DNA of 64,000 bases, from NCBI RefSeq assembly GCF_030056575.1, contig NZ_JASHHX010000013.1, forward strand, positions 62,001 through 126,000, written 5' to 3'. Of this stretch, positions 20,755-62,254 are shown in pieces. This stretch comes from Rhodoblastus sp. 17X3. GTDB lineage: Bacteria > Pseudomonadota > Alphaproteobacteria > Rhizobiales > Beijerinckiaceae. The position numbers were made by a program, and so were the translations under genes. How positions within the stretch are numbered: position 1 is the stretch's first letter; every line of letters starts with the position of its first letter. The notes below the pieces were generated by a model. That model was not told where the DNA came from. It did not search any database and worked only from the letters and a program-made list of their open reading frames with translations.

Positions 20755-21645
20755 TCACAAGGTCCCGACGATGCGCTTCAGCTCGGCGCGGAAGCCCGGC
20801 TCGATGTCCGGGCGGGCCAGCGCGAACGCGACATTGGCGGCGAGGAAGCCAAGCTTCGAGCCGGTGTCATAGGTCTTGCCGTCGAAATGACGGGCGAAGA
20901 ATTTCTGGGTTTTGGCCAGTTCGATCATCGAATCGGTGAGCTGAATTTCGCCGCCGGCGCCCTTCTGGCCCTTGGCGAGCAGGTCGAAGATCTGCGGCTC
21001 CAGCACATAGCGGCCGGAAATGATGTAATTGGACGGCGCGGTCCCCTTGGCGGGCTTTTCGACCATGCCGGCGATCTCGAAGGAAGCCCCGAAGTCCTGG
21101 CCCTTGGCGACGACGCCATATTGATGGGTGTCCTCCATCGGGACCTGCTCGACCGCGATGACATTGCCGCCATGCTCGTTATAGGTGTCGAGGCATTGCT
21201 GCAGGCAGCGCTTGCCGCCCGCGCCCGGCAAGGTGATCATGTCGGGCAGCAGCACGGCGAAGGGCTCGTCGCCGATGATGTCGCGCGCGCACCACACGGC
21301 GTGGCCGAGGCCGAGCGGCAATTGCTGGCGGGTGAAGCTGGTCGCTCCCGCTGCCGGAAGATCGGCCTGAAGCCCCTCCAGCTCCTTGAGCTTGCCGCGG
21401 CGCTGCAGGGTTTCTTCCATCTCATAGGCGATGTCGAAATGATCCTCGATCACCGCCTTGTTGCGGCCGGTGACGAAGACGAAATGCTCGATGCCCGCCT
21501 CGCGCGCCTCTTCGACGCAATGCTGCAGAACCGGGCGATCGACCACGGTCAGCATTTCCTTCGGAACGGTCTTGGTGGCGGGCAGCACGCGCGTGCCGAG
21601 GCCGGCGACCGGGAAGACAGCTTTACGAATTCGCTTTTTCTGCAT
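20755..21645 (-). CDS. galU: UTP--glucose-1-phosphate uridylyltransferase
   Basis: A 296-residue nucleotidyltransferase that makes UDP-glucose from UTP and glucose-1-phosphate for exopolysaccharide and envelope glycans. The N-terminal '[41 protein letters not shown]' is the Rossmann-like loop that binds UTP; '[26 protein letters not shown]' and '[16 protein letters not shown]' are further GalU marks. It is divergent from galE (191 bases apart) which completes the UDP-glucose/UDP-galactose pair. Confidence 0.95.
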
Positions 21646-21836
21646 GGAACATCCGCTTCGCTGAGAAGTGATGGAAGATTACGGCTGGGCCGGCAGGTTC
21701 TTATCACCGCCGGACAGGTTCCGCCAAGAAAGTTGAAATTAGCCTTTCTGACCGGCGCCGCTTCGCAGCCCGGCTTTTTTGCTCTAAAACTGCCCCGGCC
21801 CGCGCGGCGCGGGAGGAATTCGAAAAAGGACGTTGG

Positions 21837-22829
21837 ATGACCGTTCTCGTGACTGGCGGCGCCGGCTATATCGGCTCGCATATGGTGCTCGAACTGCTGG
21901 ACGCAGGCGAAAAGGTCGTCGTGCTCGACAATCTTTCGACCGGGCGCCGCGCCTCCGTGCCGCCGCAAGCCGAGCTGATCGTCGGCGACTTCGGCGATGA
22001 GCCCCTTGTCAGGGACCTGCTTTCGAGCCGGGGCGTGAAGGCGATCATCCATTTTGCGGCCAAGATCATTGTGCCCGAATCGGTCGCCGATCCGCTCGGC
22101 TATTATCTCAACAACACCGCCTCCGCCCGCAGCCTGCTGGCCTGCGCAGTCGAACAAGGCGTAAAGCATTTCATCTTCTCCTCCACCGCCGCCGTCTATG
22201 GCGAACCGGAGATGAACCCGGTCACCGAGGGCGAGAGCCTCAAGCCGGTTTCGCCCTATGGCCGCTCCAAGCTCATGGTCGAATGGATGCTGGAAGATGT
22301 TTCCCGCGCCCATGGCCTGCGCTATGTCGCGCTGCGCTATTTCAACGTCGCCGGCGCCGATCCCAAGGGCCGCACCGGCCAATCCAGCCCCAACGCGACT
22401 CATCTCATCAAGGTCGCCGTGCAGGCGGCGCTGGGCATGCGCCCGAGCATGGAGGTTTTCGGCGTGGATTACCCGACCCCGGACGGCTCGTGCCTGCGCG
22501 ACTACATTCAGGTCACCGATCTCGCCCGCGCCCACATGGCCGCGCTGAATCATTTGCGCGCGGGCGGCGAGAGCCTGACCTGCAATTGCGGCTACAAGCG
22601 CGGCTATTCCGTGCTGGAAGTGATCGAGACGGTGAAGCGCGTCTCCGGCGTCGATTTCGACGTGAAGATTTCGGGACGCCGCGCCGGCGATCCGGCGGCG
22701 ATCGTCGCCGCCAATGAACGGGCGCGGGAAAAGCTCGGCTGGGCGCCAATTCACGACAATCTCGAAGAAATCGTGCGCCAGGCGCTGGCCTGGGAGAAGA
22801 CGCTGCTGGCGGAAAAGGCGGCCAGTTAG
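21837..22829 (+). CDS. galE: UDP-glucose 4-epimerase
   Basis: A 330-residue SDR-type epimerase that interconverts UDP-glucose and UDP-galactose with NAD. The Rossmann loop is 'VTGGAGYIGSHMVLELL', the catalytic Ser/Tyr/Lys are in 'FIFSSTAAVYGEPE' and 'SPYGRSKLMVEW', and the sugar-binding 'ALRYFNVAGADPKGRTGQSS' is present. It is divergent from galU; the two supply sugar nucleotides for envelope or exopolysaccharide. Confidence 0.94.
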   Translation: MTVLVTGGAGYIGSHMVLELLDAGEKVVVLDNLSTGRRASVPPQAELIVGDFGDEPLVRDLLSSRGVKAIIHFAAKIIVPESVADPLGYYLNNTASARSLLACAVEQGVKHFIFSSTAAVYGEPEMNPVTEGESLKPVSPYGRSKLMVEWMLEDVSRAHGLRYVALRYFNVAGADPKGRTGQSSPNATHLIKVAVQAALGMRPSMEVFGVDYPTPDGSCLRDYIQVTDLARAHMAALNHLRAGGESLTCNCGYKRGYSVLEVIETVKRVSGVDFDVKISGRRAGDPAAIVAANERAREKLGWAPIHDNLEEIVRQALAWEKTLLAEKAAS

Positions 22830-29615: not shown

Positions 29616-30695
29616 TCAATGCGCGGATTGGACGGGCGCGGCCGTAGCTTCGCTGCGCCATGACGCCATGGCCCAGCGCGCGCCGTCAAGCACGCTCGAC
29701 AGGCCATAGGGTCCGGTCACCTTGATCTTCGCCATCAGCGGAAACTGCGTGGGCTCGTCGAAGACGATGCGCGCGACCTGGTTGCGATCCACGCCGCTCA
29801 TATTGGACTGGAATTCGGCCGGCGCCCGATCGGTGATCGTCTCGATCCTCTCGACGCGGCCGCTTTCGCGGTTCACGCCATCCGTCACGATCACCCTCTC
29901 GCCATGCGCGATTCCGTACATGCGATTTGTCGGCAGATAGGCCAGCACATATTTGGGACCGTGATAGACGTCCGCCATGACTTCGCCGTGGGTCATAACG
30001 GCGCCGGGCTCCGCGACCTTGGCGCCGAGGGTCCCCTCGACGGGGCTGGCGACGATTCCGTCGCGATAGGTCGCCTGCGCGCGGTCAAGCGCGTCGGCGA
30101 GATGCGCCAGATTCAATTTCGCCATGCCGCGCTCGCTTTCAAGCGCGCCGCGTTCGGAGCGCAAGGCTTCGACCTCGCGCGCGGCGTCATAAGCGTCGCG
30201 GCTCGCTTCCGCCTGACGCACGCGCGTGGAAAAGCCCGACGCGACGGCCTTCTCGATCTGCGCCTGCACGGCCTTCGCCGTGCGGCTTCGGCTTTCCGCC
30301 GATGGCAGCGTCGTCTCGATGGCGGCCAGACGCGTCGCGATCTGGGTCTGGCGCGCCTCGAGTTGCGCCTTGCGGGTGACGAGGCTGGAAATCAGGTCCA
30401 GCATCTGGGTCGAGACGACATTGCCGAGCGGCTGGCCCGCCGCGACTTTCTGGCCTGGCCGCCCCGCAAAGGAAAGAACCTGCGCGTCGAAGGGCTGGGT
30501 GACGATCTCGCGCTCCTGCACAACCAATCCACTCGCGTCCAGCAGCACGAGGGAGCCGATGAAAAGATAGACCACCCACAGGGCGCCGGCGCTGAGCCCG
30601 AAGACATAGAGCCGCCGGGCGAGGGTCTGGCTGGCGCGCACCTGGTTCCGCGCATTGTCGGGCCGGAACTCGGGACGCAAGGAATGGATCGCCAT
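29616..30695 (-). CDS. HlyD-like membrane fusion protein of a polysaccharide locus
   Basis: A 359-residue protein anchored by one N-terminal membrane segment ('VFGLSAGALWVVYLFIGSLVLL', about residues 30-51). After it come a biotinyl-lipoyl-like segment ('REIVTQPFDAQVLSFAGRPGQKVAAGQPLGNV') and a helical hairpin/coiled coil (residues about 105-200, 'RKAQLEARQTQIATRLAAIE...'), and it returns to a barrel ('DGIVASPVEGTLGAKVAEPGAVMTHGEVMADVY'). This order is that of periplasmic adaptor proteins (HlyD, EmrA, Alg44-like). It is the last gene of an operon with a glycosyltransferase, so its job is probably to link the inner-membrane synthase to export. The start at 30695 (MAIHSLRP) gives a 28-base gap from the glycosyltransferase stop. 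No outer-membrane channel is in the operon. Confidence 0.8.
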   Translation of the reverse strand: MAIHSLRPEFRPDNARNQVRASQTLARRLYVFGLSAGALWVVYLFIGSLVLLDASGLVVQEREIVTQPFDAQVLSFAGRPGQKVAAGQPLGNVVSTQMLDLISSLVTRKAQLEARQTQIATRLAAIETTLPSAESRSRTAKAVQAQIEKAVASGFSTRVRQAEASRDAYDAAREVEALRSERGALESERGMAKLNLAHLADALDRAQATYRDGIVASPVEGTLGAKVAEPGAVMTHGEVMADVYHGPKYVLAYLPTNRMYGIAHGERVIVTDGVNRESGRVERIETITDRAPAEFQSNMSGVDRNQVARIVFDEPTQFPLMAKIKVTGPYGLSSVLDGARWAMASWRSEATAAPVQSAH

Positions 30696-30723
30696 TTTCT
30701 TTCTCTGTCTCCCGCGCGCGGGT

Positions 30724-32007
30724 TCATCGCCAATCATTCAGATCGCGAACTTTTTTGGGAACGTAATTGTCGGTCAGGGACAAGGAGGCGACCGCCTCGG
30801 TGGCGTAGGCGTAAAGTCGGTGGAATTTCATCACATAGATCTGAAACAGACCGTATACCGGGACGAATGGCAGAAGATGCAGATAATCCGGACGTCCCGT
30901 GACAAGGGTCGCGGCGACGAAACAAGCGAGGTCGAATCCGAAAAGCGCAATGGAGACCGCCACAAGCAAGGTGGTCGCGCCAGCGACGCCGAATGTGGCG
31001 AACAGCCATCCCAGGTAGAAGGGAAAAGCGAGGCCCGGTAAAGCGGTAAACAGCAAGAAGTCCCACTGGTGCGCCGCTTCGAGCCAGCGAAAGGATGGCG
31101 CGAATGGATTGAACAGCCGACGATATTTGCGGAAGCGGATCCAATAGGCGTCCCGCTCCCAGCGGCTGCGCTGGCGCAACAGGGCGAAGGGACTTTCAGG
31201 CACGTCAGTGTAGCAAATCGCGTGGCGGGCAAATTCGATTTTGTAGCCGGCGAGCCGCAGCCGTATCGTGAAGTCAAAATCCTCGCCGCCCGTGTCCATC
31301 CCGCCCTGCGCAACCCATGCGCTGCGTCGGAAGGCGCCAAAGGCGCCTGATATGCACGACACCTGGTCGAGCGCGCCCGAGTAGGTTTTGCCGAGCGAAA
31401 TGGAGATGAGATATTCGATCGCCTGAATCGCGGTGGTCACCGAACGACGCCAGTTGCGCACCAGGATATTGCCCGACACCGCCCCGATGGACGCGTTCCC
31501 CGCGAGCGGGCGCAGCAATTCCTCGATCGCATTGGGTTCGAACGAACAATCGCAGTCCGTGACGATGAAAATCTCGCCATGCGCCATGCGCGCCGCGAGA
31601 TTGAGGGCCGCCGCCTTGCCGCCGCGCAACTGCAGGCGAGCGATCGACTGCACCAGCCCCTCACTCTGCAAGCGCCGCATGATCGAAAAGGTCCGGTCGC
31701 TGGATCCATCATCGACGCAGACGATTTCGAAGCCGTGGAAACTCTGTTTTCGCAGCGACCGGACGCATTTTTCGATGGCGTCTTCCTCATTATGGCCGGC
31801 CAGCAGGATCGAGACGCGAGGAAGCGGCGGAAGCGGCCCGTAAGGCCGGTGGTCGCGGAGGATGAATGCGGCCGCGGTCGCCTGAATCCCAATAAAAAAT
31901 CGCGGCGCGTCCGTCAGCAGCACCATGCCGAACATCGTGAAAAACGACCATCCCGACAGGGAGCCCAGCAGGCCGCGTGCATTTTCGAAAAGCTCCATCG
32001 CGCTCAC
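30724..32007 (-). CDS. Family 2 membrane glycosyltransferase (processive type)
   Basis: A 427-residue inner-membrane synthase. A helix near the N-terminus precedes the GT-A domain with 'PRVSILLAGHNEEDAIEKCVRSLRKQ', Asp in 'IVCVDDGSSDRTF', DxD in 'IFIVTDCDCSFEPNAIEELL', 'GGEDFDFTIRLRLAGYKI' and the terminal QxxRW-like 'RQRSRWERDAYWI'. At least four helices follow. This pattern is that of processive polysaccharide synthases such as those for poly-N-acetylglucosamine or cellulose. The GTG start (32007) overlaps the TackOD1 stop (GTGA); an ATG 9 bases in could also serve. No dedicated hydrolase or deacetylase is in the operon, so the polymer cannot be named. Confidence 0.85.
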   Translation of the reverse strand: MSAMELFENARGLLGSLSGWSFFTMFGMVLLTDAPRFFIGIQATAAAFILRDHRPYGPLPPLPRVSILLAGHNEEDAIEKCVRSLRKQSFHGFEIVCVDDGSSDRTFSIMRRLQSEGLVQSIARLQLRGGKAAALNLAARMAHGEIFIVTDCDCSFEPNAIEELLRPLAGNASIGAVSGNILVRNWRRSVTTAIQAIEYLISISLGKTYSGALDQVSCISGAFGAFRRSAWVAQGGMDTGGEDFDFTIRLRLAGYKIEFARHAICYTDVPESPFALLRQRSRWERDAYWIRFRKYRRLFNPFAPSFRWLEAAHQWDFLLFTALPGLAFPFYLGWLFATFGVAGATTLLVAVSIALFGFDLACFVAATLVTGRPDYLHLLPFVPVYGLFQIYVMKFHRLYAYATEAVASLSLTDNYVPKKVRDLNDWR

Positions 32008-33422
32008 GCAACTTTTCTCGGCCGCTCCGCGACCCCCGGCACTTCGTCAGGCGAAAAGACGGCGAGTTCGATTTTCGGCGCGAGCGAGAGATGCCGTTCG
32101 AGCCTTTGGCGAATATCGGGCAGATGCCGCTCGACCTCCGCCTTGAGGTCGCGTCCGAGCAGGGCCAGATAGACGGGTGCGGCAGCGATAATCTCCGTTT
32201 CGGGCGTGAAGCATTCCCGCATGATCTGATCGAAGAAAGCGCAGGTCTGACGCCAGGCGTCGGCCCTGTCCGGCATCTCCGGCGGCTTGTGCAGACGAGC
32301 GAACAATATGCTGCAGGGCTGCCCGAGCGCGGCGTGGCGGCGCGCAAAAGCGCGGACCCTGCCGCCGATTGAAACACCATCAGCTTCCGGGAGCGGCGCC
32401 CCGCTGGTCACGCAGGCGCGTCCGGCGGCGGTCAGGCCATAGGCGTAGATGGTCGTGCTGTCGACGCGCCGCGCATCAATGCGCGAGTCGCAATCCAGGC
32501 AGAGGAAACCGACCTTGTGTTCGGTGGAGAGGTGGCTGCAGGATCGGCAGACGGCGATCGACCCCGGGCGATCGTAATCGACGCTGAAGTTCTTCAGCTG
32601 CTGCAGGCATTTGGGGCAAACCAGCTCGCCGCCGCGCCGGAAGTCGCGCTCCGGCCCCTGGCAAGCGCATTTCAGGTGATGGACAATCGGCTCCTCGACG
32701 ATGTCGGCGCCGCCGCAGCTCGAACAATATTCGCGCACCGTCATCCGCGCCGAGGCGCAATGGGGGCAGACATTGGTCTTGTCGAAGAATTTTCGCTCCA
32801 TCAGGCCCTGGCTGGCCAGTTCCGCCGCGAGCGCCGCCGCGCCCGGTATCGCAACCTCGTCGTCATAGACGAAGGTTTCGCGGGCGCCGACCTCGCTTCG
32901 CGGCGTCAAAGCGCGGTCGCGCACGAACAGGCGCGCCAGCAGCATCAGGCGACGGTCTTCGGTTTCGATCACGTCGCGCGGCAGGGAGCGAAGCCGCCGC
33001 ACCGCGGGACGAAGCATCTCGACGGCCTCGTCGATCTCGCGCTGCGAGGCGCCGTCAAGCATGATGTCGGCGCGGCGCTGATCCCGCGTTCCGCGACCGC
33101 CGCGGGTCGCATCGACGACGGGGAGAATCGCGGCGGGGCCGCGGCCGAGGCGCCGCGCCAGCAAGGCCGCGGCGTTCGTCTCCGTCAATAGGACGATGTC
33201 CGGCGTTTCGTTCGGATTGGCGAAACAGGCTTCGTCCGGCAGGATCGTCTCGTTGAGGCGACCGGGAACGCCAAGAAGCCGAATGGGAGCTTGACGCCGC
33301 AGGGCCTCCGGCGCATCGGAGCCATGGGGGCGGCCGGGACCCGAGGACTCGGCGCGAGCAGAAATATCGACGAGCGCCGCCTTCGGAAAGTCCTGCCTCG
33401 CAAGATGAATCGCTTTGCTCAT
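32004..33422 (-). CDS. TackOD1 zinc-ribbon signalling protein with degenerate GGDEF-like tail
   Basis: A 472-residue cytosolic protein. Residues about 45-170 look like a divergent receiver-like domain (IRLLGVPGRLN...TPDIVLLTETNAAALLARRL) with no sure phosphoacceptor Asp. Residues 212-330 hold a large cysteine cluster: C219/C222, C233/C236, C252/C254, C269/C272, C292/C295 and C308/C311. The order 'FFDKTNVCPHC...REYCSSCGG...HHLKCACQGPE...LVCPKC...VDYDRPGS...C..C' is the pattern I know as the TackOD1 domain, first described as an output domain in Thaumarchaeota and found in bacterial signalling proteins. The C-terminal third (residues about 345-455) resembles a GGDEF fold without the GGDEF motif, so it may bind c-di-GMP or a nucleotide without making it. 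It begins the operon and is coupled to the glycosyltransferase (GTGA). Confidence 0.78.
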   Translation of the reverse strand: MSKAIHLARQDFPKAALVDISARAESSGPGRPHGSDAPEALRRQAPIRLLGVPGRLNETILPDEACFANPNETPDIVLLTETNAAALLARRLGRGPAAILPVVDATRGGRGTRDQRRADIMLDGASQREIDEAVEMLRPAVRRLRSLPRDVIETEDRRLMLLARLFVRDRALTPRSEVGARETFVYDDEVAIPGAAALAAELASQGLMERKFFDKTNVCPHCASARMTVREYCSSCGGADIVEEPIVHHLKCACQGPERDFRRGGELVCPKCLQQLKNFSVDYDRPGSIAVCRSCSHLSTEHKVGFLCLDCDSRIDARRVDSTTIYAYGLTAAGRACVTSGAPLPEADGVSIGGRVRAFARRHAALGQPCSILFARLHKPPEMPDRADAWRQTCAFFDQIMRECFTPETEIIAAAPVYLALLGRDLKAEVERHLPDIRQRLERHLSLAPKIELAVFSPDEVPGVAERPRKVA

Positions 33423-33855: not shown

Positions 33856-34392
33856 TCACTTAAGCTCGCAAGCGAAGATCGCTTTGATTCGCGTTGTCAC
33901 CCGTACGCTCGGATAACCATCGTAGAAGCCAGATATCAGGAAGGTTGCGGTCTCCCCGGGAAGAGCTGTTCCGCCAGAAGACATGACGACATCCTGCAAA
34001 CCCAGATTTTGGGTGATCATTTCGATGCGGACGATCACTTTATTGTCCAGTATGTTGTGCAAATCCCAGGTGAATGCATTCGCATAGGCGAGAAAAGAAG
34101 GACTTGCCGAGCGAATTTTCTTCAATTCTGCATCGGCCAACGGTTCTGGAATGCAGGTCTTGATTTCTCCGGCCATGCCGCGTGAAGCGAGCCTTTCCTG
34201 CACCTTCGCCTCACACTCGTCTCGGCAACCTTTCATAAAGCTGCGGATCTCCTCGTCCTCTATGGCGGACGAGGTGTGTTTCGACGTAAGGCAAACTCGA
34301 AAGCAGGTTTGGGTTTGGGCTTGGGTTTGGTCGAACGACGTGGCTCCGAGAGCCGCAGACCCGACCATGGCGGCTAGCAGGATCATTCGCAT
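33856..34392 (-). CDS. Secreted cysteine-containing hypothetical protein
   Basis: A 178-residue exported protein of no recognised family. Signal peptide 'MRMILLAAMVGSAALGATSFDQTQAQ' leads to a mature part with cysteines in 'QTCFRVCLTSKH' and 'MKGCRDECEAKVQERL', which could form two disulfides, then 'KTCIPEPLADAELKKIRSASPSFLAYANAFTWDLHNILDNKVIVRIEMITQNLG' and a strand-rich C-terminus ending 'KAIFACELK'. The start at 34392 fits the signal peptide; a frame to 34434 is less likely. It lies in a region of mobile-element debris, so it may be imported cargo. Confidence 0.6.
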   Translation of the reverse strand: MRMILLAAMVGSAALGATSFDQTQAQTQTCFRVCLTSKHTSSAIEDEEIRSFMKGCRDECEAKVQERLASRGMAGEIKTCIPEPLADAELKKIRSASPSFLAYANAFTWDLHNILDNKVIVRIEMITQNLGLQDVVMSSGGTALPGETATFLISGFYDGYPSVRVTTRIKAIFACELK

Positions 34393-34493
34393 TTGGAGGC
34401 TCGCAAGACGTTGCTGGAGCGCCATCAGACGCAAGCAGGGGCGACTTATGGTTTGCGATAAATTGTACGGACGTCACGGCGCGATGGATCATT

Positions 34494-35516: not shown

Positions 35517-36398
35517 TCAGTATTTGGCCGCGACGACGGTCGGCTTCGGCGCCACCCACAGCGGAACGATCAGATGCGCCCACAGACGGGTTTCGAAGAC
35601 TTCGTGTCCGTTGCTATCCAGATAGTTTTTATTTGCCACGTCGTGCGACAAGTACAATTGGCCCGTAAAGCAACCGAAATCGTAACCGGCCAAAATAGCA
35701 AGCGCGAATTGGCTCTGCCGCTTGTAAGTCGGAGAGCTCGTGCCGCTGAGGTCGAACGAACCAAAAGCGCCGCCGCCCAGGATGTACTTTCCGAATGTCT
35801 TGGTAGCAGTCAAATCGAAGTTGAAATAATCCGGCGCCGTTCTCTGACCCTGCGCATCCGTCCCTGTCAAGCCAGTCACCGTATAGGCCGTGAGGTTCCA
35901 TCCATTCGCTGTGTAGCTGATGGCGGCTCTCTCGTTGAAGACCCAGAAATTCTGATTCAGTTCGTTGTTGATTGGAAAGTAAACGCCAAGATAATTGGTG
36001 AAGCCGAAGCCGCCCCCCAAATCCCAAGCCAAAGCAACCGCTCCATAGGGATTGTAGAACGCAGCCAGAAACGACTTGTTGCCCGGTTCGGAACTGCCGA
36101 CGATCACTTGCGGAGGGGTTGTCAAAAATTCGACTCGCGCCCCGGCCAAAGTCCAGGGCGTCGACCAGGCCAGCACCGGAGTGTGCACCGCCAGGCCAGA
36201 ATTGTAGCCCGAGCCGCGATTGTTGCCATAGCTGGCGATATCGATGAGATAGAGGCCTTCCGGCAGCGGGGCGCCCGTTGCGAGACCGACAGTTTCACCT
36301 TGTTGGGTAAATGAGCCAGCGTTTGCTTGCTCAATAGGCATAAGGCCGAGAAGCCCGGCTCCCACAGCAAGTACAGTTCCAATTTTTGCGTTTTTCAT
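35517..36398 (-). CDS. MetA-type outer-membrane channel (phenol MetA-degradation family)
   Basis: A 293-residue outer-membrane barrel with signal peptide (MKNAKIGTVLAVGAGLLGLMPIEQANA). The mature part has 'PLPEGLYLIDIASYGNNRGSGYNSG', 'LAGARVEFLTTPPQVIVG', 'YNPYGAVALAWDLGGGFGFTNYLGVYFP' and repeated Tyr/Gly-rich strands, which resemble the MetA/phenol-degradation channel family, whose members let small aromatic or aliphatic substrates pass. Its row on the minus strand behind aldA and the dehydrogenase suggests that it admits the alcohol. The gap upstream to aldA (36399-36629) shows no other gene. Substrate not shown by the sequence. Confidence 0.7.
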   Translation of the reverse strand: MKNAKIGTVLAVGAGLLGLMPIEQANAGSFTQQGETVGLATGAPLPEGLYLIDIASYGNNRGSGYNSGLAVHTPVLAWSTPWTLAGARVEFLTTPPQVIVGSSEPGNKSFLAAFYNPYGAVALAWDLGGGFGFTNYLGVYFPINNELNQNFWVFNERAAISYTANGWNLTAYTVTGLTGTDAQGQRTAPDYFNFDLTATKTFGKYILGGGAFGSFDLSGTSSPTYKRQSQFALAILAGYDFGCFTGQLYLSHDVANKNYLDSNGHEVFETRLWAHLIVPLWVAPKPTVVAAKY

Positions 36399-36629: not shown

Positions 36630-38096
36630 TCAGACTTTGATGTAGGCGACGTGCGTCTCCATATATTCGTGAAGCCCGTGCTTTCCGTCGGCCCCCCCGA
36701 TTCCGGATTTGCGACGCCCGGCGTGGAATCCCTGCATGGCTTCGAAATTCTCGCGATTGACATAGGTCTCGCCGAATTTCAGCTGTTGAATCGCCCGCAT
36801 CGCGGAGCTGAGATCCCGCGTGTAGATCGACGAGGTGAGGCCGTAATCGGAATCATTGGAGAGGGCGATGGCTTCATCGAGACCATCGATTGTCTGGATC
36901 GGCAGCACGGGGCCGAAGATCTCCTTGCGCATGATTTCCATGTCGGCGCGACAGCCGATAATCAAAGTCGGCTCGTAATGGTGACCGGCGCCGAGATCGG
37001 CGACTTTGCCTCCGACAATCACGTCGCCGCCCTGTTCTTGCGCGCGGCTCACCATGGCGCTGACCTTGGCGAGTCCGGCGGCGTTGATCAGCGGACCCAT
37101 GTCCAGATCGTGATCCTTCATCGGATCGCCGTAGCGCGTCGCCTTCATCTTTGCTGCGATGTTCTCGATCAGGGAATCGGCGATCGATTTGTCGGCATAG
37201 ACGCGTTCGGCGCAATTACAGACCTGTCCGGTATTGATGACGCGAGATGCGACAATTGCGGTTGCGGCGAGGTCGAGATCGGCGTCGGCCAGAACGATGG
37301 CTGGCGCCTTGCCGCCCAACTCCAGATTGACGCGCGTCAAATTCTGCGCGGCCGCCTGCATGATACGGATGCCGGTCGGCACGCTGCCGGTAAAGCTGAT
37401 CAGGCCGATATCGGCATGTTGCGTCAGATGCGCGCCCACTGTCGCGCCGGTTCCACCGACAAGGTTGAAAACGCCCGCGGGAAGATTCGTCTCGGCGACG
37501 AGCCGGGCGAATTCAAAGGCGTTGATTGGCGTTTCCTCGCTCGGCTTGATGACGATCGTATTGCCGGTCAGCAGAGCCGGAGCAAGTTTTCTGGCGATCA
37601 GGAAAAACGGGAAATTCCAGGGCAATATTCCCGCCGTCACGCCAATGGGCTTGCGCATCAGGAAGATGCTTTCGCCGGGTCTGTCGCTGGGAATGATTTC
37701 GCCTTCGATACGTCGCGCCCATTCGGCCATATAGTCGATATAGTCGGCGGTGAAGTCGACCTCCACGCGCGCCAGGCCGAGCACCTTGCCCTGTTCGCGG
37801 GTGATGATTTCCGCCAGCCGGTCGCGCGCGCCGCGAATTTTTGCCGAAATCTGGCGCAAATAGCCTGCGCGCTGGATCGCCGGCAGCCTCTCCCATCCCG
37901 GTTGCGCTCGCTTCGCCGCCGCGACGGCCTCGTCGACGGCAGCCTCGGAACTGTTTGGCGTCGCCGCCAGAAACTCCTGCGTCGCGGGGTTGAACACCTC
38001 AACGCTGCCGCTTTGCGCTTCAGAAAAACGTCCGTCGATGAAGTTCCGATAGGATTCGACGCGGCCGTCGGCCGAATTCTGGATATGCTGGTTCAT
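36630..38096 (-). CDS. aldA: NAD-dependent aldehyde dehydrogenase (AldA-like)
   Basis: A 488-residue aldehyde dehydrogenase of the lactaldehyde/glycolaldehyde AldA type. The catalytic Cys lies in 'NTGQVCNCAERVYA', the Glu in 'NLELGGKAPAIV', the NAD pocket residues in 'ILPWNFPFFLIARKLAPALLTGNTIVIKPSEETP', and 'GFHAGRRKSGIGGADGKHGLHEYMETH' is AldA-typical. It would oxidise the aldehyde formed by the PQQ-dependent alcohol dehydrogenase of the same row. The start at 38096 follows GAGAATTCAC; an ATG at 38108 is also in frame. It lies 30 bases after the DUF1097 gene. Confidence 0.9.
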   Translation of the reverse strand: MNQHIQNSADGRVESYRNFIDGRFSEAQSGSVEVFNPATQEFLAATPNSSEAAVDEAVAAAKRAQPGWERLPAIQRAGYLRQISAKIRGARDRLAEIITREQGKVLGLARVEVDFTADYIDYMAEWARRIEGEIIPSDRPGESIFLMRKPIGVTAGILPWNFPFFLIARKLAPALLTGNTIVIKPSEETPINAFEFARLVAETNLPAGVFNLVGGTGATVGAHLTQHADIGLISFTGSVPTGIRIMQAAAQNLTRVNLELGGKAPAIVLADADLDLAATAIVASRVINTGQVCNCAERVYADKSIADSLIENIAAKMKATRYGDPMKDHDLDMGPLINAAGLAKVSAMVSRAQEQGGDVIVGGKVADLGAGHHYEPTLIIGCRADMEIMRKEIFGPVLPIQTIDGLDEAIALSNDSDYGLTSSIYTRDLSSAMRAIQQLKFGETYVNRENFEAMQGFHAGRRKSGIGGADGKHGLHEYMETHVAYIKV

Positions 38097-38126
38097 GTGA
38101 ATTCTCATTTCGCAGTGAAGGTTGGA

Positions 38127-38594
38127 TCAAGCGGGCCGGGCGATAGATTTGCCGAACGATTCGGAGGCGTAGCCAAAAGCGACGCCCGCCATCCAGGTGA
38201 TGGCTATGAACAGGGCGCTCGCGTCGAGCGGGCTTGATGAGCCGAAAAAGCTGGCGGCGCCGAGAAACGCGGCGGGCGTGAAGGCGAGAGCCGGAACATC
38301 CGCCATTGCGACCAGCACGAAAGCGAGGATCGTGACCAGGCCCACCAAAGGCAGCAATCCACCGCCCGCATATTGCACGCCGAGCAAGGTCGCGAAGGTG
38401 AGCCCAATGCCCGCCAACCCGGCGAATCCCGCCTTGGGAATGGCCTGTGCGCCGCCTCCGGCTGCAAAAAAGGCCGCCCAGGCGACGAAGCCGATCCAGG
38501 GATTGAAGTGCAGCGTTGGAACGCCGACGCTCAGATAGACCCAGGCGGCGACCAGCAAGGCGACGCTCAGGGCGATTGCATGCAAGATTTTCAT
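38127..38594 (-). CDS. DUF1097 inner-membrane protein
   Basis: A 155-residue, four- to five-helix membrane protein of the DUF1097 family (E. coli YcdZ type). 'ILHAIALSVALLVAAWVYLSVGVP', 'NPWIGFVAWAAFFAAGGG', 'AGFAGLAGIGLTFATLLG' and 'LPLVGLVTILAFVLVAMADVPALAFTPAAFLGAASFFG' mark the helices. The function of the family is unknown; here it is inserted between the PQQ dehydrogenase and aldA, so transport of substrate, product or cofactor is possible. The ATG at 38594 is the start chosen because it opens the first helix; ATG codons at 38600 and 38651 are in frame. Confidence 0.78.
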   Translation of the reverse strand: MKILHAIALSVALLVAAWVYLSVGVPTLHFNPWIGFVAWAAFFAAGGGAQAIPKAGFAGLAGIGLTFATLLGVQYAGGGLLPLVGLVTILAFVLVAMADVPALAFTPAAFLGAASFFGSSSPLDASALFIAITWMAGVAFGYASESFGKSIARPA

Positions 38595-38669
38595 ATGCAT
38601 CACCAATTTTGAAATCGCGGAACGATTGAGGGAGAAGGAGGGGCGGGCCACGCGAGCCCGCCCGCTGCA

Positions 38670-40391
38670 TCAGCCTTGCTTGGGGAGTTTGAACACCCAG
38701 ATCGCGCCGCCCTGCGGGACGACGGTCTTGTGCGGCAGGACCGCGTCGAAGGCGCCCTGCATGCGTTGGGCGTCGACGCCCCAGCCCGATTGCACGGCCA
38801 CATATTGCTCGCCGTCGATCTCGAACGTGCTGGGCACGCCGGTCACGCCGGAATTGGTCGGGAAGTCCCAGAGCATGTCGCCGGTCTTGGCGTTGAAGGC
38901 GTGGAACTTGCGGTCATTGGTGCCGCCGCCGAAGACGAGATCGCCGCCGGTGGTCAGCAAGGGGCCCCAGTTCATTTCCTTGTATTTATGCGTCCAGACC
39001 TGCTTGCCGGTGCTCAGATCCCACGCCTGCACTTCGCCGACGTGATCGAGCGCCTTGTCGTCCATCCGCACATTGGTCAGGATATTGCTGAGGGCGACGC
39101 CAATATAGAGCTTGCCGGCCTTGTAGCTGACCTTCTCGCCCGTGAGTTCGGAGCAAAGGTTGTTGTTGGCGGGGACATAGAGCAGCTTGGTCTGCGGATT
39201 ATAGGCTTCGGGAACCCAGTCCTTGCCGCCCCAGAGCGAGGGGCAGAAATGCACGGTTTTTCCGGTGCCCGGCGTCTTGGAAGGATCGTAGGTGGGGCGT
39301 CCGGACTTGGGATCGACGCTGGTGAAGACGTCCTGCCGGACAAAGGGCCAGCTGGCGACATAGCCGATGGATTCCGGCTTGCGTTCGAGTAGCCAGAGAT
39401 AGCCGTCGCGTCCGGCGTGAACCAGGCCGCTGATGGTTTTGCCCTCGCGCTGATAATCGATCAGCATGGGCGTCGAGACTTCGTCCCAGTCCCAGGCGTC
39501 GGCCTGATGATATTGATGGAAGCCCTTGAGCTTGCCGGTCTCGATATCGAGGGCGATCACGCTGTTGGCGTAGAGATTGTCGCCGGGCCTCGTGTCGGGC
39601 ATCCATGGCGCGGCGTTTCCCGTTCCCCAATAGGTGGTGCGGGTTTTCGGATCGTAGCTGCCGCTGACCCAGGTCGAGCCGCCGCCGCGTTGATAGGAAT
39701 CGGCGGGCCAGCTGTCGCCGCCGGGTTCGCCCGGCGCGGGAATGGTGAAGGTGCGCCAGGCCTCCTTGCCGGTGCTCGCGTCGAACGCGGCCACAAATCC
39801 ACGGACGCCGAGTTCGCCGCCGGACGAGCCAACAAGAATCTTGCCTTCCGCCGCGAGGGGAGCGAGCGTGATGTAATAGCCGCTCTTCCAATCGGCGACG
39901 GGAACCTGCCACGCCTCCTTGCCCGTCGCGGCGTCGAGCGCGATCAGCTTGGCGTCCGTCGTGCCGAAATAGACCTTGTCGCCATAAAGCGCGACGCCGC
40001 GATTGGTTGGATGCAATTGCATCAGTTCTTCGGGAACCTGGTGCTGGTAGCGCCAGAGTTCCGCGCCGGTTTTGGCGTCGAGCGCGATCACCTGATTGCC
40101 GGGCGAGGTGACGAACATCAGGCCGTTGTTGACGATGGGGGGCGACTGGTGGCCTTCGAGCTGGCCTGTCGAATAGACCCAGGCGACACTGAGCTTCGAC
40201 ACATTCTTGGCGTTGATCCTGGCCAGCGGGCTATAGCCCCAGCCTGCGTAATTGCCCCTGAATTGCAGCCAGTTTTGCGGCTCCGGGCTGGCGAGGCGGG
40301 CGTCCGTCACGCTATCGTAAGCGGTGGCGGGCAGAATGCTCAGGGCCAGCATCGAGGCGCCAAAAGCCAAATGTTTCGAACTTTTCTTCAC
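38670..40391 (-). CDS. PQQ-dependent alcohol dehydrogenase with lanthanide signature
   Basis: A 573-residue periplasmic enzyme with signal peptide (VKKSSKHLAFGASMLALSILPATA). Eight-bladed propeller strands carry Trp motifs such as 'DAKTGAELWRY' and 'DAATGKEAWQV'. The active-site block is 'ADAWDWDEVSTPML': catalytic Asp301 is followed two residues later by Asp303, the extra Asp that coordinates lanthanides in XoxF/ExaF/PedH enzymes and is absent from calcium-type MxaF. Glu (GGELG) and Asn (GTGNAAPW) metal ligands are also kept. The vicinal Cys-Cys near 'NRGVALYGDKVYF' of classical methanol dehydrogenases is missing. A GTG start (40391) follows AGGAGG by 8 bases; an upstream frame to 40466 overlaps the Rieske gene. 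Alcohol specificity is unknown. Confidence 0.92.
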   Translation of the reverse strand: MKKSSKHLAFGASMLALSILPATAYDSVTDARLASPEPQNWLQFRGNYAGWGYSPLARINAKNVSKLSVAWVYSTGQLEGHQSPPIVNNGLMFVTSPGNQVIALDAKTGAELWRYQHQVPEELMQLHPTNRGVALYGDKVYFGTTDAKLIALDAATGKEAWQVPVADWKSGYYITLAPLAAEGKILVGSSGGELGVRGFVAAFDASTGKEAWRTFTIPAPGEPGGDSWPADSYQRGGGSTWVSGSYDPKTRTTYWGTGNAAPWMPDTRPGDNLYANSVIALDIETGKLKGFHQYHQADAWDWDEVSTPMLIDYQREGKTISGLVHAGRDGYLWLLERKPESIGYVASWPFVRQDVFTSVDPKSGRPTYDPSKTPGTGKTVHFCPSLWGGKDWVPEAYNPQTKLLYVPANNNLCSELTGEKVSYKAGKLYIGVALSNILTNVRMDDKALDHVGEVQAWDLSTGKQVWTHKYKEMNWGPLLTTGGDLVFGGGTNDRKFHAFNAKTGDMLWDFPTNSGVTGVPSTFEIDGEQYVAVQSGWGVDAQRMQGAFDAVLPHKTVVPQGGAIWVFKLPKQG

Positions 40392-40416
40392 GTTGTTTTC
40401 CTCCTGGAGTTTTTTG

Positions 40417-41031
40417 TTAGTCGATTGCTTTCGCACCGCCCGGCTCGGAGCTGAATTCTCCTGCAATGACGATTTCGCTTTGCTCCGATTTCAGCGGCAA
40501 TATTGGAAGGGGGCGAGGCGCCGGCCCGGCAAAGACCGCGCCTTGATTGCGCGGGTCGAATTGCGAAAGATGGCAGTAGCAAAGGATCATGCGATCCTTG
40601 TCGTTCCATTCGGTCACGTCGCATCCGCGATGCGGGCAGACCCCGGAGAAGGCGAAGACGCCGTCGGCCGAACGGGCGAGTTGATCGGGCGTCAGCTCGC
40701 TGGAATCGAACCGCACCAGAATGATGCGATTGAGGCGGGAGCCTTCGCGCTTGATTCCGTCGGCGGGATTGAAAGGGAAGGCGCCAAAGGGCTTGTCGCC
40801 AATCTTGATGTCCAGCAGCTGAAGCGCCTTGGGCTTCCCCTCGGAATCTTCCGCCACAAGGCGGTCGCCCTCGCGCGGCCTGGCGCTGTCGACTCCAGTC
40901 GCGAAGGCGGGTCCGCCTTCGCCGAACATGCCGGTCGCCATGGATAGCGCGAGACAGTGAAGCGCTGTGCGACGCGTTAAGCACTCACCGGAGCTTCGTC
41001 CCCCTGGCGTGCGCATTTTCTTGAACCTCAA
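40417..41031 (-). CDS. Exported Rieske 2Fe-2S protein
   Basis: A 204-residue (198 if the ATG is used) periplasmic iron-sulfur protein. A twin-arginine leader 'CLTRRTALHCLALSMATG' directs folded export by Tat. The 2Fe-2S site is complete: 'SGVCPHRGCDVTEW' and 'MILCYCHLSQFDPRNQG' give C-x-H...C-x-x-H, matching cytochrome bc1-type Rieske sites. It may carry electrons between the PQQ enzyme and the respiratory chain; that role is inference from position. Start is uncertain: TTG at 41031 has GGGAGG 5 bases before it, while ATG 41016 lies further in. It is the first gene behind the -24/-12 element at 41068-41082. Confidence 0.85.
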   Translation of the reverse strand: MRFKKMRTPGGRSSGECLTRRTALHCLALSMATGMFGEGGPAFATGVDSARPREGDRLVAEDSEGKPKALQLLDIKIGDKPFGAFPFNPADGIKREGSRLNRIILVRFDSSELTPDQLARSADGVFAFSGVCPHRGCDVTEWNDKDRMILCYCHLSQFDPRNQGAVFAGPAPRPLPILPLKSEQSEIVIAGEFSSEPGGAKAID

Positions 41032-41067
41032 CAGATCCTCCCATGTTTTTGATTTTTGGGAGATGCC

Positions 41068-41082
41068 GCAAAGGCCATGCCA
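41068..41082 (-). promoter_or_regulatory. Sigma54 (-24/-12) promoter for the Rieske/PQQ-dehydrogenase genes
   Basis: Minus strand reads TGGCATGGCCTTTGC, with GG and GC 12 bases apart as required by the RpoN consensus TGGCAC-N5-TTGC. Transcription would start about 41056, roughly 25-40 bases before the Rieske start codons. An AcoR-type sigma54 activator gene diverges on the other side. Confidence 0.78.
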
Positions 41083-41206
41083 GCAGTAACGGCGGAAGAC
41101 GTCTCGTCGCCGCCCTGACCGATTTTAGCAACAGAATCATTCTGTTAGATTGTTTCGATCTTGAATTTGCAATAGTCTTTTGCAGTGCAGCGAGAATGGA
41201 TACAAA

Positions 41207-41249
41207 GTGTTACATGTGTTACATCTTCCGTCACAGGCGTCAGTTACAT
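41207..41249. promoter_or_regulatory. Tandem GTGTTACAT sites, probable activator binding region
   Basis: Two directly repeated GTGTTACAT words (41207-41215, 41216-41224) and a third AGTTACAT (41242-41249) lie about 150-190 bases upstream of the sigma54 promoter, the normal distance for an enhancer bound by an activator that loops to RNA polymerase. The rest of the gap 41032-41372 has no gene. Confidence 0.6.
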
Positions 41250-41372
41250 AAAACATCCCGCCAGCACTCGAGTTGTACGATATTCAGTTGTATCAATATC
41301 CGTTTGATGGAAATATAAAGTGTGGTAGGTTTCCAATTTTAATGAAAAGAACAGCGCGCTATTGGAGGATAC

Positions 41373-43355
41373 ATGCGTTCGAGCAAGAGTGCGCATCAGA
41401 ATGATCTGATCGCGAAGACTCTGGACGGCGGCGTCGCGCGACTTGACGAATTCGATCCATTGATCGTCAGGTCATGGCGGCGGTCGGTGGAAGGGTATCG
41501 GCTGGACCCCGGCCGCGTTCGCGCTCCGCGCGTCCTGACGGGCGCCGCTCTGCGTCAGCATCGCGAACCTGTAGAGCCTTTGCTCGCTCATTCACGCGAA
41601 ATTTTCATACGCGCACATCAGCAGCTGAGCACCGCCGGATATGTCTTGCTGCTGGCGGATGCGAGCGGCGTGACGATTGAATTCTTGAGCCAACACGGAA
41701 CATTGCTCGGGGGTGGACTTGGTCTTGGCGCATGCTGGGACGAACCCGAAGAGGGCACCAACGCTATTGGCGCGTGCATCATTGAAAAGGCGCCGGTCAC
41801 GGTCCATCGGGCCGAGCATTTCCTTGAAGCCCATCGCATCGTCACCTGCACCGCCGCCCCAATCTTCGGCCCGCGCGGCGATCTGCTGGCCGTTTTGAAT
41901 GCGACGTCGCTCGACGTTTCCGGAGAGCGAAAAGATAAATTTCTTGCGCAACAATTCATCGCCGGCACGGCGCATATCATCGAAACAACCGCCTTTTTCA
42001 GCGAGTTCCAGAAGTCCTGGATTTTGAAGTTGAATGAGCGCGCCGGCCTGTTGGAAACGACCACGGAAAGCCTTCTCGCGATCAACGCGGAGGGCCGCGT
42101 GATCGGGGCGAACCGTGTCGCGTTCTGCGAGCTTGCGGGATGTGGCTTGCCTACGATTCTGGGGCGGGCGATCTCCGATCTCTTCGATATTGAATTCGAG
42201 GAACTGTTGGCGAAGACGCCGGCGCAAACCGGCCATGGCTTGCTGGTTCACGCAGGAGCAGATCGGCGGCCTTATTTTGCGCTTCTGCGTTGGCCCAAAA
42301 GCGTGACGGTTGGCCAGAGTTTTTACCAAAGCAGACAGTCGACAAACAACACGATCAGCAAAAGGAACGACCGTTCTGGCTTCCCTGAACTCGCGTCGCT
42401 GGCCGGCGACGATCCGGAGATGCTGCGAAACATCCAGATGGCGAAGCGCGTCGTCGATCGACCCATATCCATCCTTTTGCAGGGAGAAACAGGCGTCGGA
42501 AAAGAACTGTTCGCCCGCGCCTTGCACGGCGCCAGTGGACGCGCAGGCGAGCAATTTGTCGCTCTGAATTGCGCCGCCATTCCTGAGTCCCTGATTGAAA
42601 GCGAGTTGTTCGGTTACGCCGACGGCGCGTTCACAGGCGCTCGAAAAAAGGGGATGAAAGGCAAAATTCTCCAAGCGAGCGGAGGGACGCTGTTTTTGGA
42701 CGAAATAGGCGACATGCCGCTTGACCTGCAGTCTCGTCTTTTGCGTGTTCTCGCGCAAAACGAAGTGCATCCTCTCGGCGAGGAGCAGGCCATCCCGGTC
42801 GTTCTCCATGTTATCTGCGCTACGCATCGCGACATTCGCGATCTGGTCGCCTCTGGAAAGTTTCGTGAGGATCTCTATTTCCGATTGGCGGGAATGACGT
42901 TCAAATTACCCGCCCTACGCCAACGCGCGGATCGCCGGGCTCTTATCGAAGGCATATTGCAGAAAGAATCCGCCGGCGACAGGGACAACATTGTGTTCGA
43001 CGAAAGCGCCATGACGGTCTTGCTTGCTTACGACTGGCCTGGAAATATCAGGCAGTTACAGAATATCGTCCGCTATTGTTTGGCTGTTGTCGACGGCCCC
43101 CTCGTCACGGTCAAGGATTTGCCCCCCGAAGTCTTCGAAAAAAGGCGAGAAGAATCGTCGTCGCCTCCCGCTGACGAGCCTCTCGATGCGCGGCAGAAAG
43201 TCGGGCGCGAACGTTTGATCGCCGCGTTGAAATCCAATCGCTGGGAAATTGCCGCGACCGCGCGCACTCTCGGCGTAGCGCGCATTACTCTTTATCGCAG
43301 CATCGCGCGTTTCGGGATCATACGTCCCAAGGGCTCAGACCGTTTTCAAGCGTGA
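41373..43355 (+). CDS. Sigma54-dependent AcoR-type transcriptional activator
   Basis: A 660-residue enhancer-binding protein. The N-terminal 200 residues form a GAF-like sensor ('LADASGVTIEFLSQHGTLLGGGLGLGACWDEPEEGTNAIG...' is the AcoR family mark); a PAS-like stretch (about 225-310) follows. The AAA+ domain has Walker A 'LQGETGVGKELFARALHG' (371-378), the sigma54-contacting GAFTGA loop ('DGAFTGARK', 418-423), Walker B 'GGTLFLDEIGDMP' and the arginine finger region 'FREDLYFRL'. The C-terminal Fis-type helix-turn-helix is 'NRWEIAATARTLGVARITLYRSIARFGI'. Alcohols, diols or acetoin-like compounds are the usual signals of this family. It is divergent from the Rieske/PQQ genes and follows GGAGGATACATG, a good RBS. 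Confidence 0.92.
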   Translation: MRSSKSAHQNDLIAKTLDGGVARLDEFDPLIVRSWRRSVEGYRLDPGRVRAPRVLTGAALRQHREPVEPLLAHSREIFIRAHQQLSTAGYVLLLADASGVTIEFLSQHGTLLGGGLGLGACWDEPEEGTNAIGACIIEKAPVTVHRAEHFLEAHRIVTCTAAPIFGPRGDLLAVLNATSLDVSGERKDKFLAQQFIAGTAHIIETTAFFSEFQKSWILKLNERAGLLETTTESLLAINAEGRVIGANRVAFCELAGCGLPTILGRAISDLFDIEFEELLAKTPAQTGHGLLVHAGADRRPYFALLRWPKSVTVGQSFYQSRQSTNNTISKRNDRSGFPELASLAGDDPEMLRNIQMAKRVVDRPISILLQGETGVGKELFARALHGASGRAGEQFVALNCAAIPESLIESELFGYADGAFTGARKKGMKGKILQASGGTLFLDEIGDMPLDLQSRLLRVLAQNEVHPLGEEQAIPVVLHVICATHRDIRDLVASGKFREDLYFRLAGMTFKLPALRQRADRRALIEGILQKESAGDRDNIVFDESAMTVLLAYDWPGNIRQLQNIVRYCLAVVDGPLVTVKDLPPEVFEKRREESSSPPADEPLDARQKVGRERLIAALKSNRWEIAATARTLGVARITLYRSIARFGIIRPKGSDRFQA

Positions 43356-61606: not shown

Positions 61607-62254
61607 GTGCCCCTTTTCCTCGCCACCTTCACGACCCTGCTGGCGATCATCAATCCCTTCGAGGCGCTGCCGGTCTATCTGGGCTTCGCCGCGCGGCTGG
61701 ACGACAAGGCGCGCCGCTCGCTCGCCTTCCGGTCGTGCCTTTACGCGCTCATGCTGATGTTCTTCTTCCTGATCTTCGGAACCCTGCTGCTGAAGGTGTT
61801 CGGCGTGCCGTTGGCCATGGTCCGGATCGCCGGCGGCATCATCCTTACCCGCCTCGGCTTCCAACTGTTCTCATCGCCCTCCTCGGTCGGCGGCGCCGGC
61901 TCGGGCAAGGGTGAAAGCGCTGAGCAGAGCGACGCCGCCTTCGTTCCTCTGGCCATGCCCATCATGTTCGGGCCAGGCGCCATGGCGACGATCCTGGGCA
62001 TGACCTCGCAGGTCAAGAACTCGGCTTCGGAATTGACGGGCCTCGTCGCGGTCTCGGCGGCGCTGGTGGCGACCATGGGCGTGACCTACCTGATCCTCGC
62101 CAGCGCCAAGCAGCTGCAGCAGCGGCTTGGGCCGCGCGGGATCGATGCGGCGACGCGCATCGTCGGCTTCTTCGTCGCCGCCATGGGCATCGGCATGGCC
62201 TTCGACGGAATCATCGAAGCGCTCCAGATGCACGGGGTGACCAGCCTTCATTGA
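61607..62254 (+). CDS. MarC-family inner-membrane protein
   Basis: A 215-residue, six-helix inner-membrane protein of the MarC/YchE family, whose function is unknown (MarC was once thought to export antibiotics). 'LATFTTLLAIINPFEALPVYLGFAARLDDKARRSLAFRSC', 'FGVPLAMVRIAGGIILTRLGFQLF' and 'FVPLAMPIMFGPGAMATILGMTSQ' are the conserved helices. A GTG start (61607) follows AGGAGCCGGCCT and begins the first helix; the 46-residue upstream extension is not protein-like. Confidence 0.88.
   Translation: MPLFLATFTTLLAIINPFEALPVYLGFAARLDDKARRSLAFRSCLYALMLMFFFLIFGTLLLKVFGVPLAMVRIAGGIILTRLGFQLFSSPSSVGGAGSGKGESAEQSDAAFVPLAMPIMFGPGAMATILGMTSQVKNSASELTGLVAVSAALVATMGVTYLILASAKQLQQRLGPRGIDAATRIVGFFVAAMGIGMAFDGIIEALQMHGVTSLH

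Follow-up and report, generated by a model that had tools for sequence, protein, structure and literature searches.

Why should a cysteine-rich TackOD1 protein share an operon with a membrane glycosyltransferase and a periplasmic adaptor? The question is raised by three overlapping minus-strand genes at positions 29616-33422 of a 64,000-nucleotide stretch of the Rhodoblastus sp. 17X3 genome (NZ_JASHHX010000013.1, positions 62,001 to 126,000), referred to below as the window. A preliminary description, made from the sequence alone, took them for a candidate uncharacterised glycan export system, plausibly controlled by cyclic di-GMP (c-di-GMP) and consisting of a TackOD1 protein, a processive-type family 2 glycosyltransferase (GT2) and an adaptor. 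The three open reading frames (ORFs) do lie there, and the stop of the TackOD1 gene and the GTG start of the GT2 gene can be read in the sequence as a GTGA overlap; the system, however, has a studied counterpart, as the trio corresponds to mxdABC, a biofilm operon of Shewanella oneidensis. We propose that the operon very probably encodes an Mxd-type, synthase-dependent polysaccharide machine in which the TackOD1 protein is the cytoplasmic switch.

Kinship of the trio with mxdABC and its recurrence across genomes

The genus taken as Shewanella was the gammaproteobacterial genus in which two genomes (2 of 9) carried OmcA/MtrC-family matches over the cut-off. One mxd promoter primer (PMC3691769, Table 2) matched a single genome among 129 of this genus, and all five mxd primers tested had exact matches in that one genome, just upstream of a gene for a 462-aa TackOD1 protein. 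The genes following these MR-1 primer sites encode, in order, the 462-aa protein (Pfam TackOD1, 238.7 bits), a GT2, an HlyD-like protein and a 122-aa protein without a Pfam family match. The position of the primer sites just upstream of the TackOD1, GT2 and HlyD-like genes indicates that mxdA encodes the TackOD1 protein and that the window trio is a relative of mxdABC. MxdA is a TackOD1 protein, and the trio is, judged by sequence, a distant version of the Shewanella Mxd machine. Direct BLASTP comparison of the window proteins gave 27% identity over 197 columns with MxdA (E 2e-21) and 32% identity over 368 alignment columns with MxdB (E 2e-44). First-round profiles, built from the order loci only (31 loci, i.e. 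the places of the order sample over the Pfam cut-off and two genus genomes, window included), matched the three genes of L094, a locus of the same genus as MR-1, at 6e-44, 5e-77 and 3e-15, and the order-only adaptor profile matched the adaptor of L097, of that genus too, at 2e-16. The second-round profiles were retrained on the loci themselves and contain loci of the MR-1 genus, so that the non-circular evidence consists of Pfam, the first-round profiles and direct BLASTP.

PMC7666153 and PMC11395469 describe MxdA as a c-di-GMP effector, report that it binds c-di-GMP and name CheY3 and PdgA as its interaction partners. According to these papers and PMC3691769, ΔmxdA and ΔmxdB mutants are aggregation deficient and mxd mutants form flat biofilms; a role in biofilm polymer synthesis is proposed for mxd, which is needed for biofilm structure (PMC7666153, PMC3691769). 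In outline, then, the machine is already known, from one genus. Gambari 2019 is said to be the primary study on MxdA binding. The identity of MxdA as a TackOD1 protein, the wide occurrence of the cluster and the swapping of its inputs were not found in print by a search that left most subscription papers outside its reach. Among the papers searched, TackOD1 appears by name in a single one, PMC5847659 (2018), which introduced the name and does not mention MxdA; under PF18551 or arCOG06883 the domain can also be traced to PMC6992631 and PMC4858521.

A survey of gene neighbourhoods revealed that the trio is conserved well beyond its genus. Each genome sample (genus, order, class, phylum) included the window genome, and the order, class and phylum samples shared some genomes; places below the Pfam cut-off were excluded (2 in the order, 6 in the class and 3 in the phylum sample), as was L182, which has no TackOD1. 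TackOD1 exceeded the cut-off in 26 of 297 order, 9 of 385 class and 15 of 398 phylum genomes, and in none of 14 control genomes. A GT2 gene on the same strand adjoins TackOD1 in 26/31 order loci, all 26 with an adaptor, and in 17 of the 21 loci from the rest of the class and the phylum, 16 of them with an adaptor. The corresponding count for the 68 named loci, which overlap the order loci and are not additive with them, is 59, with 54 adaptors. This recurrence of the trio across genomes led us to reject a chance neighbourhood. Carriers of the TackOD1-GT2 pair include Roseibium, Methyloceanibacter, Bradyrhizobium, Bosea, Thalassospira, Microbulbifer, Desulfoluna and Chryseobacterium; relatives of the cluster occur in other phyla too, TackOD1-GT2 pairs are present in some archaea, and a Plesiomonas plasmid is annotated with a diguanylate cyclase, a glycosyltransferase and HlyD in this order.

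Some loci depart from the common arrangement. Three Microbulbifer loci (L139, L140 and L145) carry a second GT2 copy upstream of the TackOD1-GT2 pair, followed in L139 by an adaptor of its own, and in L056 a second TackOD1 gene follows the trio. Both system copies of Methyloceanibacter superfactus (L042 and L055, on the same contigs as L142 and L141) have broken frames, reflecting decay or assembly errors. Hypothetical proteins similar to the window TackOD1 protein are encoded on five haloarchaeal plasmids (tblastn matches alone); on the one plasmid viewed, from Haloterrigena (L258, 5842-6819), HalOD1 and response-regulator genes lie nearby and no GT2 is annotated within 6 kb.

Domain make-up of the three proteins

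The TackOD1 assignment, which the preliminary description had made from the cysteine pattern, was borne out: the 472-aa protein, sole TackOD1 match of its genome, scores 145.7 bits against a curated Pfam cut-off of 32 (PF18551, residues 155-329), and the cysteine cluster was not reassigned to another domain. The protein has 17 cysteines, 12 of them, as described earlier, in one cluster (residues 219-311), and 11 of these 12 fall in columns invariant or nearly so in the family. The AlphaFold2 model built on an alignment of 48 members, with the window sequence first, has a mean predicted local distance difference test (pLDDT) score of 83.8 and a predicted template modelling (pTM) score of 0.63; the TackOD1 region alone (residues 150-333) reaches a pLDDT of 93.3. 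Comparison of the TackOD1 model with the PDB gave no clear solved relative, with nothing at E 0.001 or below.

The degenerate GGDEF-like tail was likewise confirmed. No Pfam GGDEF match is present in the window protein (12/48 members match at E 0.01), but residues 346-463 of the model adopt a GGDEF fold (best Z 11.0, root-mean-square deviation (rmsd) 2.5 over 114 residues), and the sequence profile of the 48 members, which is independent of the model, reaches GGDEF chains at 3.5e-10. With Foldseek alone, no match to the model reached E 0.001; the best was the FimX GGDEF domain at 7.7e-3. The active-site motif GG[DE]EF occurs in none of the 48 members, window included, and diguanylate cyclase activity is therefore not expected. 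PleD residues 145-432 align with model residues 38-462 (2v0n_A, 223 residues, rmsd 9.3); the rmsd implies that this alignment holds domain by domain, and its extent suggests that residues 42-150 form a receiver-like domain. Pfam finds no receiver in the window protein, and the receiver-like domain probably lacks the phospho-acceptor aspartate, which would make it a pseudo-receiver. The first protein is PleD-like: a receiver-like domain, TackOD1 and a catalytically dead GGDEF fold.

Its relatives differ in their presumed inputs. RxxD, whose position we take to be the c-di-GMP inhibitory site of GGDEF domains, is kept in 28/48 members (in-register count; a looser count gives 29, one of them out of register). 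A true receiver is fused in front in 18/48 members, 16 of which have the acceptor-aspartate motif. RxxD is retained by 4/18 receiver-bearing members vs 24/30 others (Fisher p 0.00018), although the receiver-bearing members form approximately one clade and the contrast thus counts as one or a few events, not as independent evidence. Genes for receivers or hybrid kinases lie near 16/31 order loci and histidine phosphotransfer (HPt) genes near 13/31; Pfam confirmed an HPt protein and a PAS-HAMP histidine kinase among example neighbours. A midpoint-rooted GT2 tree (38 rows) groups the window with its two genus relatives and L036 (support 93/87). Next to this group stands a 15-row clade (81/83) containing every one of the 13 receiver-bearing rows, and the joint 19-row set is supported at 98/95; the receiver label needs two changes on this tree. 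Loss of a receiver by the window protein is not supported, as its absence may be ancestral on the GT2 tree, and no receiver remnant was found upstream of the window gene. By these sequence comparisons, the window lineage is a form without receiver in which RxxD was apparently lost.

The second protein is a processive-type GT2 with DxD and QxxRW-like motifs, as first described. Its catalytic residues D100, D151, D153, D243, Q279, R280 and W283 are invariant in 37 aligned members, window included, and hyaluronan synthase matches most of its length (profile positions 36-399, E 7.7e-28). In the 4.18-Mb window genome the GT2 profile has 13 matches; apart from the window gene, the strongest of them reaches 1.1e-14, and these numbers too speak against a chance neighbourhood. 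An apparent TackOD1-GT2 fusion in L052 (a 1063-aa ORF on a Rhodobium orientis contig) was rejected because the stops lie in different frames (6617 and 6595) and the ORF has no Pfam GT2. The long GT2 ORFs of L036, L041, L054 and L108 are read as including an open upstream frame; in L036, L041 and L054 Pfam GT2 covers only the later part.

For the periplasmic adaptor of the preliminary description, Pfam by itself gives a weak match that just reaches the cut-off (HlyD_3, 22.2 bits), and the profile of the adaptor family finds EmrA as the closest solved structure (1.8e-21). That description also noted the lack of an outer-membrane factor and of a hydrolase; this is true of the window operon, but does not extend to all relatives. 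In several lineages, profile matches and annotation place a TolC-like gene either immediately ahead of the adaptor or between it and the TackOD1-GT2 pair; of ten such proteins scanned, six match Pfam OEP at E 0.01 and five exceed its cut-off. The C-terminal half of the TolC-like protein carries a D-x-E and M-x-Y pattern (17 rows), with D154, M224 and Y226 invariant and E156 in >90%, presumably a GH18-like motif. The best PDB match of this half, at 2.7e-22, is a chain whose deposited name is 'Putative GH97 from Cellulomonas fimi'; a chitinase is matched weakly (0.023), and Pfam GH18 is weak (best 0.0014, 2/17), so that 'GH18-like' is a soft reading of the domain. In Methylocystis, Bradyrhizobium and Alsobacter the trio is adjoined by a separate protein like this half, apparently secreted as judged by eye. 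The hydrolase-like domain of the relatives hints at an amino-sugar or beta-linked polymer.

Plasmids carry such clusters too. A 29-kb Aeromonas caviae plasmid, typed as mobilizable, has a four-gene Mxd-like set (L253, NZ_AP024951.1, 9554-11914, and L260, 1-3462): a TackOD1 protein annotated as diguanylate cyclase, a GT2 running across the record start, a TolC family protein and an HlyD adaptor. On a Methylocystis iwaonis plasmid (L257, 972-12359) the trio is accompanied by a TolC family gene downstream and, just upstream on the other strand, by a separate efflux set of a major facilitator superfamily (MFS) protein, HlyD and an outer-membrane protein.

Proposed mechanism and its alternatives

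Domain make-up, conservation, intact catalytic residues and kinship with mxdABC are all evident. Comparison with Mxd suggests that the role of TackOD1 is to switch on a sugar-polymer synthase. From a nucleotide sugar, the GT2 would build a polymer, probably of beta-linked hexose or amino sugar units, and move it through the inner membrane, from where the adaptor would connect the synthase to an outer-membrane exporter encoded outside the operon; OEP genes elsewhere in the window genome (15 matches in 8 open frames) could serve. The TackOD1 protein would be the cytoplasmic switch, PleD-shaped, with TackOD1 between the receiver-like and the dead GGDEF domain. Most likely it gates the GT2 and relays a signal from its two ends, TackOD1 presumably touching and activating the GT2. 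The input in relatives would be c-di-GMP, through RxxD, together with a receiver signal, which may be borrowed (CheY3 in Shewanella) or come from a receiver at the front of the protein itself, to which a phosphorelay encoded nearby would pass the signal; for the fused forms we infer this phosphorelay from the neighbouring genes. The role in glycan synthesis and export proposed earlier remains the likely one.

Several observations weigh against this reading. RxxD is absent from the window protein and its two genus relatives, and the window copy has no fused receiver. Control by c-di-GMP, as claimed in the preliminary description, thus fits the family, with MxdA a reported binder, but is doubtful for the window copy. 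The match of the window adaptor to MxdC is weak (BLASTP E 0.008), no mxdD counterpart lies beside the window trio, the only place checked, and the operon has no exporter or hydrolase gene; a search of the window genome for the stand-alone hydrolase-like protein was empty, a kind of empty result that shows nothing. Given the missing mxdD, we speak of an Mxd-type operon or mxdABC relative, not of the Mxd system itself, although mxdD is not clearly a defining part of that system. TackOD1 exceeds the cut-off in just 3/11 genus genomes. In the archaeal phylum of L174 it does so in 153/250 sampled genomes, with a same-strand GT2 beside it in 4/40 fetched loci, none of the four with an adaptor found, and with a convergent GT2 neighbour in L226, L229, L236 and L250; since archaeal TackOD1 is mostly away from GT2, its tie to GT2 is not universal. 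An adjacent GT2 is missing from some bacterial loci too: L036/L152, where the trio has a different gene order; L040/L133, at a contig edge; L061/L138, which keep the adaptor; L042/L142, with broken frames; and L039, L110-L113, L158, L160, L167, L168 and L171, some on short contigs.

The archaeal loci also bear on a rather unlikely alternative, in which the machine is the same but the TackOD1 protein is a scaffold or a nucleic-acid-binding regulator acting indirectly, through c-di-GMP levels or transcription. In its favour, archaeal TackOD1 genes mostly stand without GT2, and PMC3691769 says that MxdA was shown to control c-di-GMP levels indirectly. The later papers (PMC7666153, PMC11395469) speak of an effector instead, and most fetched bacterial loci hold the gene in a tight operon with GT2. 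A weak alignment of the TackOD1 model, taken by itself, with winged-helix regulators also favours this alternative, but the best Z of 6.3 lies in a range described as common without kinship.

The product could also differ from what we propose. It is quite improbable that the GT2 product is a glycolipid or a modification of some other envelope molecule, with the adaptor a co-transcribed efflux part. The adaptor is indeed EmrA-like, Methylocystis iwaonis has its separate efflux set just upstream of the trio, and the accessible mxd literature does not give the chemical identity of the Mxd product; against this stand the match to a processive hyaluronan synthase over most of the length, the QxxRW motif invariant in all 37 members, and the repeated presence of the adaptor, in some lineages with a TolC-like gene, in the same cluster. 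Still less probable is that the operon belongs to a known synthase system, i.e. that for poly-N-acetylglucosamine (PNAG; PgaC), cellulose (BcsA), the Nod-factor chitin oligomer (NodC) or rhizobial mixed-linkage glucan (BgsA/BgsB). BgsA with BgsB is likewise a GT2-adaptor pair, making mixed-linkage glucan, and the best NCBIfam match of the window GT2 is PgaC_IcaA; yet its 141.9 bits are far under the cut-off of 422.3, as are 81.7 bits vs 550 for NodC, the chitooligosaccharide synthase, and 16.8 vs 699.1 for CelA, the bacterial cellulose synthase (CelA/BcsA), in a comparison covering these three. None of the partners of those systems was present among the window neighbours scanned. Membership of a named known pathway, which the preliminary description took as refuting its reading, applies in part, through Mxd; the PNAG and cellulose synthase cut-offs are not reached.

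Returning to the Mxd-type machine with a TackOD1 switch, a broader idea, which we regard as possible though doubtful, is that TackOD1 is an ancient GT2-switching domain of bacteria and some archaea whose inputs have been exchanged: c-di-GMP through a dead GGDEF domain with RxxD, a borrowed or fused receiver with its phosphorelay or, in the Rhodoblastus lineage, the cysteine cluster or a partner protein. If so, this lineage would sense through the cluster itself, by metal or redox, or through the partner. Through MxdA, TackOD1 gains a member that has been studied by experiment in a tractable bacterium and for which a ligand and a partner are reported, and an operon studied in Shewanella becomes part of a widespread synthase family with at least two control modes. 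Many Hyphomicrobiales have, fused to their MxdA counterpart, a receiver of the kind that is borrowed in Shewanella, which makes the receiver link directly testable.

Layout of the locus and comparison with known systems

The GT2 and adaptor genes overlap by 14 nt, and a cold-shock gene lies 3' of the adaptor gene in opposite orientation. No promoter-like site was found at the operon, and terminator-like sites are at chance level (4 found vs 4.6 expected). Features are collected in the table.

Table. Genes and domains of the mxdABC-like locus (positions in the window)
Feature	Position	Strand	Basis
mxdA-like gene, receiver-like domain - TackOD1 - degenerate GGDEF, 472 aa	32004..33422	-	Pfam; AlphaFold2 model with PleD and GGDEF fold matches; Shewanella relative MxdA
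Receiver-like domain, residues 42-150, probably without phospho-acceptor Asp (pseudo-receiver)	32973..33299	-	Inferred from PleD alignment; no Pfam receiver match
TackOD1 domain, residues 155-329, 11 conserved Cys and a conserved His	32436..32960	-	Pfam; conserved columns; model of residues 150-333
GGDEF fold without GG[DE]EF and RxxD, residues 346-463	32034..32387	-	Structure matches, Z ~11; motif counts
mxdB-like gene, membrane GT2 synthase, 427 aa, GTG start	30724..32007	-	Pfam GT2; invariant catalytic residues; hyaluronan synthase match; MxdB identity
mxdC-like gene, EmrA/HlyD-type periplasmic adaptor, 373 aa	29616..30737	-	HlyD_3 at cut-off; EmrA match of family profile; place in conserved trio

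Upstream of the operon, two minus-strand ORFs (33856-34434 and 35517-36398) have no Pfam or NCBIfam match at E 0.01. Beside it (36630-43355) lie a pyrroloquinoline quinone (PQQ) dehydrogenase, an aldehyde dehydrogenase, a Rieske protein and a sigma-54 activator, resembling an alcohol-oxidation cluster. A nucleotidyl transferase and an epimerase ~7-9 kb from the trio (20755-22829), which we take to resemble GalU and GalE, could provide sugars linked to uridine diphosphate.

Known systems share parts of this design. PelD of the Pel system is a degenerate GGDEF c-di-GMP receptor and the switch of a glycan synthase; like the first protein it has a dead GGDEF domain, and PelD_GGDEF (Pfam) is matched by 1/48 members (E 0.0023), but we know of no TackOD1 in PelD. 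The archaeal REC-TackOD1 response regulators (arCOG06883) contain the same Pfam domain and some adjoin GT2, whereas most stand away from it and no adaptor was found with the four GT2-linked ones. TackOD1 and REC-TackOD1 are described in PMC5847659, which calls their function obscure. PleD-type regulators (REC - pseudo-REC - GGDEF) resemble the window protein in the receiver-like domain and GGDEF fold that align with PleD 145-432, and its relatives in the true receiver in front; they differ in that the family has TackOD1 inserted between the two domains, lacks GG[DE]EF and is coupled to GT2. A degenerate c-di-GMP-binding relative of PleD exists in PopA. The Mxd system differs from the window trio in the RxxD (RVTD) that MxdA keeps, and shares with it three proteins in the same order: MxdA with TackOD1 and a degenerate GGDEF, the GT2 MxdB and the HlyD-like MxdC, whose downstream place and adaptor family the window adaptor matches.

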